From Demequina sp. (GTDB lineage: Bacteria; Actinomycetota; Actinomycetes; Actinomycetales; Demequinaceae): a stretch of DNA of 64,000 bases. Made by a program: the position numbers and the translations under genes. Of the stretch, positions 22,564 to 62,822 are shown piece by piece (position 1 is the stretch's first letter; each line of letters opens with the position of its first letter). The DNA is taken from assembly GCF_016278775.1 (NCBI RefSeq), contig NZ_JADQBF010000004.1, positions 62,001-126,000 of the forward strand, read 5' to 3'. The notes under the pieces were generated by a model that did not search any database, was not told where the DNA came from, and saw only the letters and a list, made by a program, of their open reading frames with translations.

Positions 22564-23052
22564 ATGATGCGTTCACTAGCCCGTCCACTGTTGGCCTCTT
22601 GGTTTATCTATGGAGGCATTCGCGATGCCCTCGAACCTCAAGAACGTGCGGTCGCGGCCGAACCCGTCGTGGGGCCGCTCCTCAAAGAAGCCGGCGTCGA
22701 GGTTCCCGTCGAGACCCTGGTGAGGGTCCACAGCGCCGCCACCGCCGCGACGGCCGCCGTCCTGGCGTTGTCAAGAACCCCCCGCACCGCAGGCGTGGCA
22801 CTGACCGGACTTGCGGCCGTCACGGTCGCCACCGGCGCGCCGTTCTGGCGCCTGCCAGAGGGAGACGAGAGGGACGCGGCCCTCGACCAGTTCATGAAGA
22901 ACGTCTCCTTGCTCGGCGGGGCCATGCTCGCCGCCACCGCCGGACACAGCGCGGGGCACATGAAGCGCAAGAAGGCGAGCAAGGCCAAGGCGAAGGCAAA
23001 GGCGGAGAAGGCTAAGGCCGAGGCGGCCAAGGCCGGACGCAAGCGCAAGTGA
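22564..23052 (+). CDS. DoxX-like membrane protein with Lys/Ala-rich tail
   Basis: A 162-residue protein. The first about 125 residues form a four-helix membrane domain of DoxX type (LARPLLASWFIYGGIRDAL at the start). The last 27 residues are a run of Lys-Ala repeats resembling histone-H1-like or nucleic-acid-binding tails. Start is one of two adjacent ATGs (22564, 22567); TAGTCT ends 7 nt before the first. Its TGA overlaps the GTG of aroA (GTGA), so the two are coupled. DoxX proteins are linked to thiol and oxidative stress in mycobacteria, which fits the divergent sigR-rsrA pair. Confidence 0.8.
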   Translation: MMRSLARPLLASWFIYGGIRDALEPQERAVAAEPVVGPLLKEAGVEVPVETLVRVHSAATAATAAVLALSRTPRTAGVALTGLAAVTVATGAPFWRLPEGDERDAALDQFMKNVSLLGGAMLAATAGHSAGHMKRKKASKAKAKAKAEKAKAEAAKAGRKRK

Positions 23053-24401
23053 CGGTTCCGCTCCGCCAGGGCACCGGTCCCGGCGAGGTGTGGGATGCCC
23101 CGGCGCATGCGGTGCGGCACGGCGACACGGCGCTGGACGCGACCGTGGAGGTCCCCGGTTCCAAGTCGCTGACCAATCGCTTTCTGGTGCTCGCGGCCCT
23201 CGCCGATGCCCCGGTGACGATGCGCGGCGGTCTGGTGTCGCGCGATTCGGCTCTGATGATCGAGGCGCTGCGTGCGCTGGGCGTGTCCGTGGACGTGGGC
23301 GCCGACGCGTGGACCATCACCCCAGCACCGATGCACGGGGGCGTGCACATCGACTGCGGGCTCGCTGGGACGGTCATGAGGTTTGTGCCCCCTCTCGCCT
23401 TGTTGGCTGGCCTCGCTGGCGACATCAGGCCCATCACCTTTGACGGGGATCCCGGCGCGCGCGTGCGGCCCATGTTGGCGCTCATCGATGCGCTGCGCGG
23501 CTTGGGCGCCGTCGTGGACGACGACGGGCAGGGCACCTTGCCCTTCTCCGTCACCCCGCCCACCACCGTCCCGGACGCGGTGGACGTGGACGCCTCGGCG
23601 TCGTCCCAGTTTGTGACGGCGTTGCTGCTGGTCGCCCCCAGGCTTCCCGGCGGCCTCACCGTGCGCCACGTGGGCGAGGTGTTGCCGAGCCTTCCGCACA
23701 TCGACATGACGTGCGAGACGCTGCGCTCCGCTGGCGTGCGCGTGGACCAGCCTGACGAGCGCACCTGGGTGGTTCACCCAGGCGCGCTGAGACTGGGCGA
23801 CGTGCGGGTGGAGCCGGACCTCTCCAATGCGGGGCCCTTCATGGCCGCGGCGCTGGCCGCTGGCGGCACGGTGCGCATCCCTGGCTGGCCCGCCGTCACC
23901 ACGCAGCCGGGCGCGCTGTACCCGGAGCTCTTGGAACGCATGGGAGCCACCTGCGAGCTCGAGGGCGACGTGATGACCGTGACGGGCACCGGCGAGGTGC
24001 GTGGCATCGAGGCCGACCTCTCCCCCGCCGGCGAGATCACGCCCACCATCGCTGCGCTGTGCGCTCTCGCCACGGGTCCGTCGGTGCTCACGGGCATCGG
24101 GCACCTGCGTGGCCACGAGACGGACAGGCTTGCCGCCATCGCCACGGAGGTGGCGCGCATGGGCGGCACGTGCGAGGCGGGTGCCGATGCGCTTGAGTTC
24201 GCCGGTGCCCCCACGCCCGACGCTCCTGGCGGGGGCCTCTCAGGCGCCGACCTGGAGACGTATCACGACCACCGCATGGCGACCTTCGCTGCCATCGTGG
24301 GGCTGGTGGTGCCTGGCACGCGCGTCATCAACGTGGGAACCACGGCCAAGACCATGCCCGACTTCCCGCGCCTGTGGGCGCGGATGCTCAGCGACTCCTA
24401 G
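23049..24401 (+). CDS. aroA: 3-phosphoshikimate 1-carboxyvinyltransferase (EPSP synthase)
   Basis: A 450-residue enzyme joining shikimate-3-phosphate and PEP in aromatic amino acid synthesis. Motifs seen: VPGSKSLTNRFLVLAALA near 35-52, the GLAGTVMRF loop near 107, and the C-terminal YHDHRMA motif. The GTG start at 23049 overlaps the stop of the DoxX-like gene. Relatives place aroA directly before rsgA; here a leftward oxidoreductase gene lies between. Confidence 0.96.
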   Translation: MTVPLRQGTGPGEVWDAPAHAVRHGDTALDATVEVPGSKSLTNRFLVLAALADAPVTMRGGLVSRDSALMIEALRALGVSVDVGADAWTITPAPMHGGVHIDCGLAGTVMRFVPPLALLAGLAGDIRPITFDGDPGARVRPMLALIDALRGLGAVVDDDGQGTLPFSVTPPTTVPDAVDVDASASSQFVTALLLVAPRLPGGLTVRHVGEVLPSLPHIDMTCETLRSAGVRVDQPDERTWVVHPGALRLGDVRVEPDLSNAGPFMAAALAAGGTVRIPGWPAVTTQPGALYPELLERMGATCELEGDVMTVTGTGEVRGIEADLSPAGEITPTIAALCALATGPSVLTGIGHLRGHETDRLAAIATEVARMGGTCEAGADALEFAGAPTPDAPGGGLSGADLETYHDHRMATFAAIVGLVVPGTRVINVGTTAKTMPDFPRLWARMLSDS

Positions 24402-24427: not shown

Positions 24428-25426
24428 CTACACCTCGACCCGCACGCCCTCCTCGAAGGACCGGATGATGGCCGTCGCCAACTCGAGCGCGCGTCGTCCC
24501 TCCCTGGCGTGCACAGGCGGCTGCTCGCCTGCCCGGAAGGCCGCGACCACTGCGTCGAAGTGCCTGTCAAACGTGTACTCGAACGTGCGGGCCTCGTCGT
24601 TGAAGTAGCCGGGCTCCCACACCTGCCGCGTCTCGTCGCCGGCCGTCGACACCGTGAGCCGCTTGACGGTGTCCTCGATGATGAGCCTGCCGGCGGTGCC
24701 GTTGACCTCCACCACGTGGGCGTCTGGGTAGGCGTAGGACGAGTCGTAGGACCCGACCAGGGAGCCCACCGCGCCGGAGGCGAACTGCAGCGCCACCGCG
24801 AGCGTCGTGTACACGCCGGGGCGCGTCATGTCGGTCATCTGCGCGGCGACGGAACTGATGGGGCCGCACAACTGCTCGAGCATGTCGAGGCCGTGCACCT
24901 GGGTCTCGATGAGGTTGGCGTGGGGGCTGGTGCCAAAGTTCGGCTCGCCGCCAAAGCGCCACGTGGCGAACACGACGTCTCCCAACTCGCCAGCGTCGAT
25001 CGCCGCCTTGGCGCGCTTGACCGGTTCCGCGTAGCGGTGGTTGAGGTTGATCGCGAAGAACAGGCTCTGCTTCTCGGCCTCGGCGAGCAGCGCGTCGGCC
25101 TCGTCAAGGTCGAAGACGAGGGGCTTCTCTACCAGCAGCGGGATGCCGCGTTGGAGGAGGTGCAGCGTCGGCTCGTAGTGCGCCTCGTTGGGCAGGCAGA
25201 CGGTGACCAGGTCTGGCCGTGCCTCATCCAGCATCGTGTCCAGGTCGGTGAACGGCGTCGTGTCGAAGTCCGCCGCGCGAGCGGCCGTGCGGTCCGGGTC
25301 ACGCCCCACGATGCCCACCAGTTCGGTGTCGCGACGCCGCGACACGATTCGGGCGTGCTGGGCGCCCCAGCCTCCGGCCCCCACCACGGCGATCCTGAGA
25401 ACCTCGTTCGTCGTCACGTCGTTCAT
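24428..25426 (-). CDS. Gfo/Idh/MocA-family oxidoreductase
   Basis: A 332-residue NAD(P)-dependent dehydrogenase. The N-terminal Rossmann fold has AVVGAGGWGAQHARIV. The EKPLVFDL motif supplies the catalytic-region lysine, and the C-terminal alpha/beta domain follows. Typical substrates are sugars, inositols or derivatives; nothing here identifies one. I start at ATG 25424-25426 behind GGAGG; a reading to 25465 adds 13 unlikely residues. It is inserted head-on between aroA and rsgA and has no sugar-metabolism neighbours. Confidence 0.88.
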   Translation of the reverse strand: MNDVTTNEVLRIAVVGAGGWGAQHARIVSRRRDTELVGIVGRDPDRTAARAADFDTTPFTDLDTMLDEARPDLVTVCLPNEAHYEPTLHLLQRGIPLLVEKPLVFDLDEADALLAEAEKQSLFFAINLNHRYAEPVKRAKAAIDAGELGDVVFATWRFGGEPNFGTSPHANLIETQVHGLDMLEQLCGPISSVAAQMTDMTRPGVYTTLAVALQFASGAVGSLVGSYDSSYAYPDAHVVEVNGTAGRLIIEDTVKRLTVSTAGDETRQVWEPGYFNDEARTFEYTFDRHFDAVVAAFRAGEQPPVHAREGRRALELATAIIRSFEEGVRVEV

Positions 25427-25484
25427 CGTCGAATCCTCCGTTGCACTCGCTCGGACCATCTCCACACTAGCCGCCGGGGATCGC

Positions 25485-25523
25485 TAGTCTCTGAGCATGA
25501 CGGAATCACCGGCGGGCGCGTGA
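25485..25523 (+). promoter_or_regulatory. Leaderless 8-codon leader ORF overlapping the rsgA start
   Basis: TAGTCT (25485-25490), six bases, then an ATG (25497) opening the reading frame MTESPAGA. Its TGA (25521-25523) overlaps the rsgA start as GTGA (25520-25523). rsgA has no ribosome binding site, so ribosomes finishing the leader could restart on rsgA. Confidence 0.5.
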
Positions 25524-26539
25524 CTGACTGGAGCCACTACGACGAATCGGACGCCAAAGTGCGCCCCTCGCGTAGTTCGCGCCCCCGGTCCAAGCTTCGG
25601 CCCGCCCATGACGACGCCGTGGACGGCTTTGTGGTGGTGGTGGACCGCGGCCGTTACACCGTGCGCACCGATGCTGGCCCGATCGTCATGGCCGTTAAGG
25701 CGCGCGAACTGGGCCGCCGCGGGCTGGTGGTGGGCGACCGCATCGGGTTGGTGGGGGACGCCTCGGGCACGCCCGACACCTTGGCCCGCATTGTGCGTCG
25801 CTACGAGCGCGTCAACTCCTTGCGCCGCACAGCCGACGACACGGACACCGCCGAGCGCGTGGTGGTCGCGAACGCGGACCAGCTCGCCATCATCGCGGCC
25901 GTCGCCGACCCGGAGCCCAATCCGCGCATCATCGACCGCTGCCTGGTGGCCGCCTTCGACGCTGGGATGGGCGCGCTGCTGGTGCTGACCAAGGCGGATC
26001 TCACCACGGCCGACGCGATGCGGGCTTTGTACGAGCCGTTGGGTGTCACTGTGGTCGAGACGTCCGTGATGCGCGAGGGCGGGCCGGAGGCTGACCCCGG
26101 CTTCCGGTTGCTGCGCGCGGCCCTGGTCGACTCCAAGACGGTGTTTGTGGGGCCGTCTGGGGTGGGCAAGTCGACGCTGGTGAACGCGTTGGCGCCCGCC
26201 GCTGACCGCGCCGTGGGGCGGGTCAACGACGTGACGGGGCGAGGGCGGCACACGTCTACTTCGTCCCTGATGCTTGAGGTTCCCAGCGGGGGGTGGATCA
26301 TCGACACCCCTGGTATTCGATCTTTTGGGCTTGCCCACGTGGACCCAGAACACATGATGAGCGCCTTCCCCGACGTGGCCGACTACGAGGCGGAGCACTG
26401 CCCGCGTGGCTGCACCCACCTGAGCGCCGCCGACGGTTGCGCGCTGGACGAGTGGGTGGGCGACAACCCCGACAGGGCCGTGAAGCTGGACTCGATCAGG
26501 CGGCTGCTGGTCTCGCGGGCGTCGGGCGATTCGTACTAG
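25520..26539 (+). CDS. rsgA: Ribosome small-subunit GTPase RsgA
   Basis: A 339-residue circularly permuted GTPase that checks late 30S maturation. After an OB-fold (about 35-110) the G motifs occur in permuted order: G4 TKAD 157-160, G1 GPSGVGKST 211-219, G3 DTPG 262-265. The C-terminal zinc module is C294, C298, H300, C307. Start GTG 25520 is the only good candidate; upstream in-frame residues run into non-coding DNA. HisN, its expected neighbour, is about 8.3 kb away beyond an accessory island. Confidence 0.95.
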   Translation: MTDWSHYDESDAKVRPSRSSRPRSKLRPAHDDAVDGFVVVVDRGRYTVRTDAGPIVMAVKARELGRRGLVVGDRIGLVGDASGTPDTLARIVRRYERVNSLRRTADDTDTAERVVVANADQLAIIAAVADPEPNPRIIDRCLVAAFDAGMGALLVLTKADLTTADAMRALYEPLGVTVVETSVMREGGPEADPGFRLLRAALVDSKTVFVGPSGVGKSTLVNALAPAADRAVGRVNDVTGRGRHTSTSSLMLEVPSGGWIIDTPGIRSFGLAHVDPEHMMSAFPDVADYEAEHCPRGCTHLSAADGCALDEWVGDNPDRAVKLDSIRRLLVSRASGDSY

Positions 26540-26600
26540 CGCTGTGTGCCCCGGGACTCGGCCGCGGCCGCACCCCCGGAGTCACGCGGCGTTTGGGGCA

Positions 26601-26681
26601 GAGTTCTCCCGAGTGGTCAGTTCAGGCGGCTTCGCGGGCAGAGTTCTCCCGTGTGTCCGTGGTGGAGACGGAGTTCTCGCG
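26601..26681. repeat. Three short direct repeats at the 3' end of the HNH gene
   Basis: GAGTTCTCCCG occurs at 26601 and 26641, and a one-base variant GAGTTCTCGCG at 26671, spaced 40 and 30 bp. The first two share a 16-bp core, GGGCAGAGTTCTCCCG. On the minus strand the two rightmost copies encode the RENS tetrapeptides at the tail of the HNH protein, and the leftmost lies just beyond its stop codon. Confidence 0.75.
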
Positions 26682-28139
26682 AGGGGGTTTGGCGGGCGCG
26701 TCGTCGCGCCCGTTGCCTGCGCCGTCGCTGGGTCCTGTTCCACTGTTGCCGAGGGTGACTGTGGCGAGTCCGCCGAGTCGTGGCGTCTGGGTGGGGTCGA
26801 TGTGGGGTGGTGGGATGAACCAGACTCGGTCACCCTTGATTTTGATGCCCCAGTGTTGTCGGTGGACGTCGTGGTGACATCTGGTGCACAACATGACGCC
26901 GTTGTTCAGGTCTGATCTCCCGCCGTGTTCCCACCACACGATGTGGTGGGCTTCGCAGTGTTCTGGTGGTGCGTGACACTTCGCACAACCCCCGTCCCGT
27001 TCCAACAACGCCAGGCGTTGGGCCTTCGTGAACATGCGGACGTTGCGTCCTTGGTCGAGGACCTCACTGGGCCCACCGAGGACGTGGGGTATCACTTCTG
27101 CGTCACCTGCGAGGCGGCGTAGTTCACTCACGGAAACGGGCTTTGATGTGCCGTCGATGCTGCCCAGCCCCACGCCACTGTTCAGGTCTGACAGGTTCAT
27201 GCGCACCACAATGGTGGTGCGCACCCCCGAGCTGGTGGTTTCCTTGCAGCCCAACGCATGGCGGGCCAAGTCATGCAGGGCGTCTGCACGCATCTGAGCG
27301 GGCGTGCGGTGATCCTGCTCTTGAGGGTCGCGGTCACGTCGGGCTCGGAGCTGGTGGGTGACCAACTGTTCCAACACTGTGCGAATCGGTGCCGCCGTGA
27401 CCGCGTCCAAGCGACCGTTCAGGGTCACCATCCCTGTGTGGTCTTCGGTCCAGGACAGATACCTCTCAGCGTGTTGATGCTTCTCACGTTCCGTGTGACC
27501 GGCCAGATCGGCCTTCGCGACCTCCCGGGCAACTAACTGTCGCACCTCCTTCACCGTGAGGCGCACCGCCTTGGCTACGAGGCGTTGCTCCAGTGCATGC
27601 AGTTGTTCACCGGGAACACGGTCTGTGAGTTGTTCAAGTCCCGCAGTGATGATCGCGGCCACATCCGTGGACAAGTCGCCCGCTATCGAGGCCGCAGTGA
27701 TGGCCGGGTAACGGGGCGCCGGTGGCGTTAGCGCCTGATCACCTTCGGAGGGATCGGGCGGAGTGGAATCGGGCGGAGTGGAATCGGACTCGGAAAGCAG
27801 CGTGGGTTCGGCAATGAACGCCCTGCCCGCTTCGATGGACCTCCACGCACCAGCTTGGGAGCCACCCGTGACGGACGCGACCATCGCCCCGGCGTTGCCA
27901 AAACCCTGCCGCCGCGCGAGCCCACCGCCGGGCAGCTCTGGGGTCGAGCGTCGTGCGGCATCACCAGCGAAACGTGCCCGCAGGGCGTCGGTCAACCTGC
28001 CCAACCTGGCCACGGCGTCGTACGCCCCCAGGAAGTCTTCCTCGGACAAACCCGCCACGTCCACACGCGCGACAGCACCGACGAGGCTACTGGCCTGGTC
28101 GATCTGTGCCACGTCTAACGACGCACCCTGGTTTGTCAT
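26622..28139 (-). CDS. DUF222/HNH endonuclease-like protein (REP13E12-type)
   Basis: A 505-residue protein with the two parts typical of mycobacterial REP13E12 proteins: an N-terminal DUF222 region (about 20-330) and a C-terminal HNH nuclease module near 395-450 (KCHAPPEHCEAHHIVWWEHG, then DLNNGVMLCTRCHHDVH). The HNH histidines and zinc CxxC pairs are intact, so it could cut DNA. Such genes are multicopy and mobile in actinobacteria, though mobility is unproved. A Pro/Ser linker (about 120-140) has tandem DSTPP units. Start is ATG 28137-28139; a TTG 12 bases earlier is possible. It forms the rsgA-side edge of the island. Confidence 0.85.
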   Translation of the reverse strand: MTNQGASLDVAQIDQASSLVGAVARVDVAGLSEEDFLGAYDAVARLGRLTDALRARFAGDAARRSTPELPGGGLARRQGFGNAGAMVASVTGGSQAGAWRSIEAGRAFIAEPTLLSESDSTPPDSTPPDPSEGDQALTPPAPRYPAITAASIAGDLSTDVAAIITAGLEQLTDRVPGEQLHALEQRLVAKAVRLTVKEVRQLVAREVAKADLAGHTEREKHQHAERYLSWTEDHTGMVTLNGRLDAVTAAPIRTVLEQLVTHQLRARRDRDPQEQDHRTPAQMRADALHDLARHALGCKETTSSGVRTTIVVRMNLSDLNSGVGLGSIDGTSKPVSVSELRRLAGDAEVIPHVLGGPSEVLDQGRNVRMFTKAQRLALLERDGGCAKCHAPPEHCEAHHIVWWEHGGRSDLNNGVMLCTRCHHDVHRQHWGIKIKGDRVWFIPPPHIDPTQTPRLGGLATVTLGNSGTGPSDGAGNGRDDAPAKPPRENSVSTTDTRENSAREAA

Positions 28140-58091: not shown

Positions 58092-58120
58092 GCCGCTACC
58101 ATGCCATATATGGAGGGGCG
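58092..58120. promoter_or_regulatory. 29-bp divergent control region with CCATATATGG
   Basis: Between two divergent starts lies the perfect 10-bp palindrome ccatatatgg (about 58104-58113). GGAGGGG serves the rightward RDD gene. Leftward, CATGGT lies 6 nt before the GTG of the SpoIIM-like gene, so overlapping promoters share this short space. Confidence 0.5.
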
Positions 58121-58945
58121 ATGAGTATCGACGAGGAAATTGTTCTTGGCGAGGGCGTGGCGATCGACTCGGGCGCCGCGTCCGTGGTGATGCGCGCAGG
58201 ATCTGGCGCGATCGACGCGATCATCATGTACGTCGGCTTCGTGGTGTTGGTCAACGTCGCTAGCCCACTCCTGACCTCGGTCAACTTCGCCATCGTCAGG
58301 GCACTGACAATCGTGCTCTTCGTCGCGTGGTTCGTTGGCGTGCCCGCGCTCGTCGAAACCCTGACGCGCGGCCTCAGTGTGGGACGACTCGCGCTTGGCC
58401 TGCGCATCGTGCGCGATGATGGCGGCCCCGTCTCAGCACGCTACGCGCTCGGCCGTGCCCTGGTCGGCCTGTTCGAGGTCTATCTCAGCGCCGGCTTGTT
58501 CGCCGTGATCGCGTCGTTCATGTCGGCTCGCGGCAAGCGCATCGGCGACATGCTCGTCGGCACCTATGCCATGCGGACCAGGGGCGGGCGCAAGGCCATG
58601 CCCCCCGTCGTGATGCCCTTCGGCATGACCGAGTGGGCGCAACAGGCTGACGTGCGGCGGCTCCCAGACGGTCTGGCGCTCACGGCGCGGCTGTTCCTGG
58701 GGCGCGCCCACCAGATGTCCCACGACGCTCGTTACCGCTTTGGCACCGAGATCGCCGGACAGCTGGCGTCGTACGTAGCACCGCCCCCGCCAGAGGGAAC
58801 GCACCCCGAGACCTTCATCGCCGCCGTGCTCGCCACCCGCAGGGACAGGGAGTACGTGTCCGGCATCTCGGCTCAACGCCTCAACGCCGAAGAGTTTCAG
58901 CGGCTGTCAGTGCTGCCGTACGGGATTCAGGACAGCGACAACTAG
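58121..58945 (+). CDS. RDD-family membrane protein
   Basis: A 274-residue protein with an RDD-type membrane domain of four helices (about 20-150); the RDD motif itself appears as VRDDGG and later GKRIGDMLVGTYAMR. A cytoplasmic C-terminal half of about 120 residues follows, rich in charged residues (FHEIAGQ-like helices, VLATRRDREYVSG). The function is unknown, although several RDD proteins are ion or osmolyte antiporters. ATG 58121 follows GGAGGGG. It converges with ahcY. Confidence 0.83.
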   Translation: MSIDEEIVLGEGVAIDSGAASVVMRAGSGAIDAIIMYVGFVVLVNVASPLLTSVNFAIVRALTIVLFVAWFVGVPALVETLTRGLSVGRLALGLRIVRDDGGPVSARYALGRALVGLFEVYLSAGLFAVIASFMSARGKRIGDMLVGTYAMRTRGGRKAMPPVVMPFGMTEWAQQADVRRLPDGLALTARLFLGRAHQMSHDARYRFGTEIAGQLASYVAPPPPEGTHPETFIAAVLATRRDREYVSGISAQRLNAEEFQRLSVLPYGIQDSDN

Positions 58946-62732: not shown

Positions 62733-62822
62733 ACGCTACCTTTCGGCGGTGGCCCCGAGCCGTCACCACGCCGGGCGTCGCCTCGTCCGCTACCGCCACC
62801 GAGGCGTTAGGGTCACGACATG
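62733..62822. promoter_or_regulatory. Divergent leaderless promoters of DUF3499 and metallopeptidase-family genes
   Basis: Rightward: TAGGGT (62808-62813), six bases, ATG 62820. Leftward: TAGCGT (62738 down to 62733), seven bases, GTG 62725. Neither has a ribosome binding site. About 95 bp separate the two starts. Confidence 0.6.

Follow-up and report, generated by a model that had tools for sequence, protein, structure and literature searches.

A conserved mini-ORF with stop-start overlap and leaderless-type spacing precedes rsgA in Demequina genomes in which rsgA is separated from aroA

Main finding and proposed role

An eight-codon mini-ORF, the stop codon of which overlaps the start codon of rsgA, is conserved in those Demequina genomes in which another gene separates rsgA from its usual upstream neighbour aroA. 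In the genomes compared, this architecture was directly seen to be conserved and to occur always and only where aroA and rsgA are split. The comparison supports a conserved, stop-start coupled mini-ORF, the position of which behind a -10-like element is that expected for leaderless initiation. With moderate confidence, it is proposed that this mini-ORF would bring ribosomes to rsgA in place of aroA.

From the sequence we infer where transcription would start, that the mini-ORF would be translated, and that ribosomes would re-initiate after it. The most likely 5' end of the rsgA mRNA is the A of the mini-ORF ATG (25497). With no leader ahead of this 5'-terminal AUG, ribosomes would load on it directly, read the eight codons, terminate at the TGA inside GTGA, and then re-initiate on the overlapping rsgA GTG, which appears to have little Shine-Dalgarno sequence of its own. 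The peptide itself would be unimportant, the mini-ORF serving to supply rsgA with a ribosome. For most Demequina, it is the end of aroA that seems to be placed to deliver ribosomes to rsgA; with an oxidoreductase gene in between, a promoter plus mini-ORF would replace aroA, so that rsgA keeps a close upstream stop. In mycobacteria, leaderless RTG starts are reported to be efficient and RTGA-coupled leaderless small ORFs to be enriched (PMC4633059).

If the proposed role is right, coupled leaderless small ORFs extend from mycobacteria to Demequina. Translation of rsgA in these species may then depend on more than the gene's own start, even though the gene looks like one with a separate promoter and a poor start site. 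The genus would also offer a natural comparison of rsgA behind aroA with rsgA behind an eight-codon frame, by which the purpose of the upstream ORF becomes testable.

Organization of the rsgA locus

The window, i.e., the whole stretch of DNA that was analysed, comprises 64 kb of a Demequina genome of 2.5 Mb. The gene rsgA (25520-26539, + strand) has a GTG start and encodes RsgA, a GTPase of 30S maturation; the protein of 339 amino acids scored 147.5 bits against TIGR00157 (cut-off 100). The mini-ORF (25497-25523, + strand), predicted to be leaderless, consists of eight sense codons (MTESPAGA) from the ATG at 25497 to the TGA at 25521-25523; this TGA falls within the first four bases of rsgA, GTGA (25520-25523, + strand). 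The -10-like element of the presumed rsgA promoter, TAGTCT, occupies 25485-25490 on the + strand. Its last T sits 7 nt before the A of the ATG, leaving a spacer of six bases. All three elements, the -10, the eight-codon ORF, and the overlapping TGA, had been described in the first-pass annotation and can be read directly in the sequence. The gap between ATG and GTGA, given there as 21 bases, is in fact 20 bases long (25500-25519; ATG-N20-GTGA), and the spacing between the -10 and the ATG fits the leaderless start that had been claimed. A scan with the sigma-70 consensus detected no promoter at the mini-ORF/rsgA site, and the assignment of TANNNT as a -10 thus rests on comparison and conservation. 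Rfam at the gathering threshold gave no match in 25000-26700.

The mini-ORF is located between rsgA and a divergent ORF for a Gfo/Idh-type oxidoreductase (24428-25426, - strand), on the other side of which lies aroA (23049-24401, + strand; TIGR01356, 344.6 bits, cut-off 287.25), the gene that normally precedes rsgA and shares a stop-start junction with it. The oxidoreductase is named by general type only, as its score stayed under every equivalog cut-off. Its ATG at 25426 is the likelier start because GGAGGA precedes it; the longest ORF, starting with a GTG at 25465, looks less likely. On the - strand, a TAGTGT at 25464-25469 is a possible -10 of this divergent gene with its Shine-Dalgarno-led ATG at 25426, and TANNNT is also present at this place in the four closest genomes.

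Comparison across the genus

A match to rsgA was obtained in all 44 Demequina genomes, 43 of which were readable at the N terminus; in the remaining one (G005), a fragment, the match begins at residue 34. In 34 of the 43 readable genomes aroA is located directly upstream of rsgA, with a 4-nt GTGA overlap in 19, abutting genes in eight, and a gap of 5-9 nt in seven. In the other nine (G000, G003, G013, G018, G029, G059, G006, G023, and G031, here called insertion-type genomes), the oxidoreductase gene, on the reverse strand, lies between aroA and rsgA. Insertion-type species include D. maris, D. rhizosphaerae, and D. lignilytica, whereas D. phytophila is aroA-adjacent. The block TANNNT-N6-ATG-N20-GTGA, always with eight sense codons, precedes rsgA in 9/9 insertion-type and in 0/34 aroA-adjacent genomes, and no mixed state of insertion and mini-ORF block occurs among the 43. 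The conservation of the block before rsgA, which had been put forward as a check on the annotation, was thus confirmed in every genome in which rsgA is not behind aroA; retention of the promoter with loss of the mini-ORF, the situation that would have spoken against it, was seen in none of the nine. As the nine rows are related, simple counts overstate the significance.

Across all 43 readable genomes, an upstream stop codon lies between a 4-nt overlap with the rsgA start and 9 nt from it. Since 34 of them have rsgA behind aroA and are without the mini-ORF, the broadly kept trait is a nearby upstream stop codon rather than leaderless initiation. Outside the genus, an aroA match ends within about 115 nt upstream of rsgA in 65 of 68 loci, a set in which some genomes are represented twice, L086 has no aroA match at that place, and L115 and L116 are cut off.

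Conservation within the block

Among the 35 columns before the GTG, 11 are invariant in the nine genomes. The preset bases of TA...T and ATG account for 6/6 of these, and 5 of the 29 other columns are invariant, including a C at -1. The hypergeometric probability is 0.00028 for the six preset bases and 0.011 for ATG alone, in rows that are related. In the 20-column interval from ATG to GTG, only 3 columns are invariant. In each of the nine genomes the TANNNT of the block is the sole one on its strand in the 120 nt before rsgA; about 0.5 per 120-nt stretch is expected from base composition.

A purine at +1 is a start-site preference of RNA polymerase. The mycobacterial enzyme is reported to favour C at position -1, with a pyrimidine at +2 (PMC4633059). 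The invariant C at -1 of the block agrees with this and counts in favour of the proposed reading, but these preferences may also account for some of the conservation of the ATG.

The nine peptides read MTESPAGA, MMESPAAA, MTQSLAAT, MTNSPAVT, MPSTPDHA, MPRTPDIL, MPAMPDPT, and MPSTPDRT (twice), and no residue beyond Met1 is conserved across them. What is kept is position, length, and overlap, not the peptide. No clear codon-level constraint was detected in the mini-ORFs, GC by codon position being mixed, and neither conserved sensing codons or residues nor a known RNA switch, as would mark an attenuator or a stalling uORF, was found. A contrast between a varying distance from the oxidoreductase gene to rsgA (55-144 nt) and the constant block was discarded, as these figures begin at different oxidoreductase residues. 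Measured to one motif, which could be located in five of the nine genomes, this distance ranges from 123 to 138 nt; as it differs so little itself, not much weight can be given to the constant spacing of the block.

Chance expectation and look-alike sites

In the 64-kb window there is a single match to the exact pattern TANNNT-N6-ATG-N20-GTGA, against a mean of 0.01 in 100 shuffles; the 2.5-Mb genome likewise has one match, and the backward control has two there. Over the 44 Demequina genomes it was found 15 times, nine of these at rsgA and six elsewhere, as compared to ten in the backward control. When the limits were relaxed to a spacer of 5-8 and 3-25 codons, the window yielded three sites; 12 further spacer bins of equal width gave 0-5 sites each. 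The occurrence in a single genome is thus within chance, and it is the conservation that constitutes the evidence.

At 58097-58124 of the window, TACCAT-N7-ATG-GAG-GGG-CGA-TGA, a frame of four codons, overlaps the ATG of an ORF (58121-58945) that was named RDD-type by eye. This ORF has a match in 44/44 genomes; 30 loci were taken and 22 compared. The mini-ORF is common to only three of the 22 (G000, G003, and G013), while 18 keep TACGATGCCA instead and, judged by eye, mostly have purine-rich sequence ahead of the start. Here, then, the situation that would speak against a mini-ORF did arise, which shows that conservation is a test that can be failed; the rsgA mini-ORF passed it, and this look-alike serves as its negative control.

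The loose search also gave a site at 62737-62820, where a TANNNT with a spacer of 6 is followed by a GTG, 24 codons, and a TGA overlapping the ATG of a 133-aa ORF. The exact pattern is also present away from rsgA in three genomes (G024 C14:32687, G032 C2:201733, and G064 C11:38158), where a palindrome, TGCACATATGTGCA, spans the mini-ORF ATG; it is possibly an operator over a leaderless start.

Strength and folding of the rsgA start site

The predicted pairing energy with the anti-Shine-Dalgarno sequence at the rsgA GTG ranges from -3.2 to -5.9 kcal/mol among the insertion-type genomes (all nine), compared to -6.9 to -9.8 kcal/mol in aroA-coupled relatives with the GTGA overlap. The latter range is that of 12 of the 19 such relatives, which share a type of N terminus. 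Random 17-mers from the window have a median of -3.0. The dependence of RsgA synthesis on re-initiation that had been suggested in the first-pass annotation would fit this weak Shine-Dalgarno sequence. Folding of the first 68 nt of the presumed transcript left the G and T of the GTG paired (mean unpaired probability <0.15) in 8/9 genomes, as against 34 % of 400 random stretches. Such pairing is common in GC-rich sequence, which is a point against reading it as a sign of coupling. The 5' ATG averages >0.6 unpaired in 7/9 genomes and in 49 % of the controls; being barely above control, its openness is not distinctive. As the rows are related, the start-site energies and the folding results are only suggestive.

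The mini-ORFs are without the embedded Shine-Dalgarno sequence seen in aroA tails. Removal of such embedded motifs is reported to have lowered re-initiation in four of five E. coli gene pairs (PMC6728339), and the coupling at rsgA may thus be weak.

Evolutionary history

In both the rsgA+aroA tree and the rpoB tree, the nine insertion-type genomes fall on separate branches, with four changes in each; well-supported branches force three changes in the former and four in the latter. The insertion/mini-ORF trait is thus scattered. The rsgA+aroA tree was built from 44 rows, to which the genus contributed 39 of its 44 genomes (all but G005, G008, G010, G019, and G034); the others are L074 and four outgroups. 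The rpoB tree covers 42 of the 44 genomes (G005 and G060 being left out); six of its rows have an odd base make-up, and G007 is a fragment with a long branch. In an oxidoreductase tree of 15 rows, five of the nine insertion-type oxidoreductases group firmly and the other four have no firm position. Between the two insertion-type groups, nucleotide identity is 75-81 % for the oxidoreductase gene and 70-75 % for rsgA. An old insertion followed by repeated replacement by aroA-adjacent alleles via recombination fits these data, as does the spread of the inserted allele by recombination.

Two further observations concern these loci. The genomes G025 and G026 (L008 and L009), sisters by rpoB, differ in their RsgA N termini and in their junctions (GTGA overlap and TGA-ATG, respectively), which suggests allele exchange at the aroA-rsgA junction. 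In L179 (G021), a genome without the insertion, an oxidoreductase homologue of 79 % identity (1168-2151) is located approximately 4.3 kb upstream of rsgA.

In 17 of the 19 genomes with the GTGA overlap, AroA, with an MW..ML tail, has a Met codon at -23 from the GTG, which is the place of the mini-ORF ATG. The eight-codon register is that of the last-but-one AroA Met in these relatives. The mini-ORF was considered as a vestige of the aroA tail and this was rejected: in a comparison of nine mini-ORFs with 11 tails over 16 columns, identity was 24 % at offset 0 and 17-40 % at other offsets. As the mini-ORFs are unlike the tails in that register, descent from aroA remains a guess. It is also possible, albeit only as a tentative suggestion, that operon splitting selects for a leaderless coupling mini-ORF, in that, once an insertion has parted aroA from rsgA, a promoter with an ATG at +1 exactly eight codons before GTGA takes over and rsgA would thereby remain one stop codon downstream of a translated frame. 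If true, mini-ORFs of this type would be a general repair for broken translational coupling, and the origin of coupled leaderless small ORFs would be explained.

Alternative explanations

The main rival to ribosome delivery by a translated mini-ORF is the action of the 5'-terminal AUG itself: it would recruit ribosomes to the end of the mRNA, these or a nearby 30S subunit would start translation at the rsgA GTG 23 nt downstream, and translation of the mini-ORF would be irrelevant. A precedent has been described for E. coli ptrB, where loss of the 5'-AUG reduced downstream expression to <8 % and a start-stop mutant kept 40 % (PMC4965119), and the lack of peptide conservation is in line with it. 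However, the rival leaves unexplained why length and frame are invariant such that the stop stays inside GTGA (9/9), and why an upstream stop lies beside the rsgA start in all 43 readable genomes; it is regarded as unlikely. Somewhat less credence is given to the idea that the mini-ORF is incidental, a 23-nt leader that happens to begin with ATG, rsgA being translated directly from its GTG at a low level. The single-genome occurrence is, after all, within chance, the ATG partly matches the start-site preference of RNA polymerase, and GTGA is partly dictated by the rsgA start and second codon. Ribosome profiling in M. tuberculosis also bears on this idea, as short ORFs were reported to be widely translated, much of which was suggested to be noise (PMC9094748). 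Against it stand the conservation in 9/9 genomes despite diverged inner codons, the weak Shine-Dalgarno sequence at the rsgA GTG, and the look-alike before the RDD-type ORF, which is shared by just three of 22 loci.

The first-pass annotation had gone further in making RsgA respond to ribosome state. In such a regulatory uORF, leaderless loading of 70S ribosomes together with re-initiation would make RsgA output follow ribosome availability. Leaderless mRNAs are reported to load 70S ribosomes directly (PMC9031893), and the RsgA of Staphylococcus aureus to bind (p)ppGpp (PMC8579695). Nevertheless, a regulatory role of this kind is considered very improbable: in 34 of the 43 genomes rsgA follows aroA and lacks a start of this kind, no peptide residue beyond Met1 is conserved, and the same architecture is described before other genes in M. 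tuberculosis (PMC4633059), so that sensing of ribosome state by RsgA finds no gene-specific support.

Comparison with known systems

Literature searches, one of them limited to the matches listed, returned no paper on rsgA coupling in Demequina. The arrangement is of a known kind, that of RTGA-coupled leaderless small ORFs; the fresh point is that it stands where relatives have an operon partner. In the mycobacterial type described by Shell et al. (2015, PMC4633059), a leaderless small ORF likewise ends in a TGA that overlaps the next RTG, in the -1 frame, and ribosome delivery is the proposed role. RTGA coupling to the next gene was reported for 23 of the 220 leaderless small ORFs of M. tuberculosis, which exceeds the 32 of 1000 random sites, and the linkage was sometimes kept without peptide conservation (PMC4633059). 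The Demequina mini-ORF agrees with this type in its overlap (GTGA in the window and in all nine insertion-type genomes), in its length of eight codons (5-50 amino acids in the mycobacterial type), and in the keeping of linkage rather than peptide across the nine genomes. It differs in its occurrence in Demequina, in its position before rsgA, in having eight codons in all nine species, and in standing in the place of aroA, which overlaps or abuts rsgA in related species. Transcription starts and ribosome footprints were measured by Shell et al.; for Demequina, the corresponding steps are predicted from sequence.

A review states the ribosome-delivery idea and draws a parallel with MIRUs (PMC12548453). 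MIRUs (mycobacterial interspersed repetitive units), as described there, are short repeats that carry an ORF with them and go in directly at a start codon; as would be the case in Demequina, coupling of a gene survives an upstream insertion through a small ORF that overlaps it by 4 nt. In Demequina, by contrast, what lies upstream is an opposite-strand gene, and the small ORF seems to be driven by a separate promoter.

In the E. coli ptrB-type uAUG mRNAs (Beck et al. 2016, PMC4965119), a 5'-terminal AUG also opens a short uORF and can raise expression of the next gene; some such AUGs are reported to act partly without translation of the uORF. A Shine-Dalgarno sequence is present at the main gene in those mRNAs, whereas that of Demequina rsgA is weak and the stop of the mini-ORF overlaps the start of the gene. 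The ATGA/TGATG pairs studied by Huber et al. (2019, PMC6728339) are similar in that an overlapping stop and start couple genes; these are gene pairs of archaea and E. coli in which an internal Shine-Dalgarno sequence usually helps, and the available sections of that report contain no leaderless mini-ORF. Coupling was reported there to be strict in 13 of the 14 overlapping pairs tested in an archaeon and E. coli.
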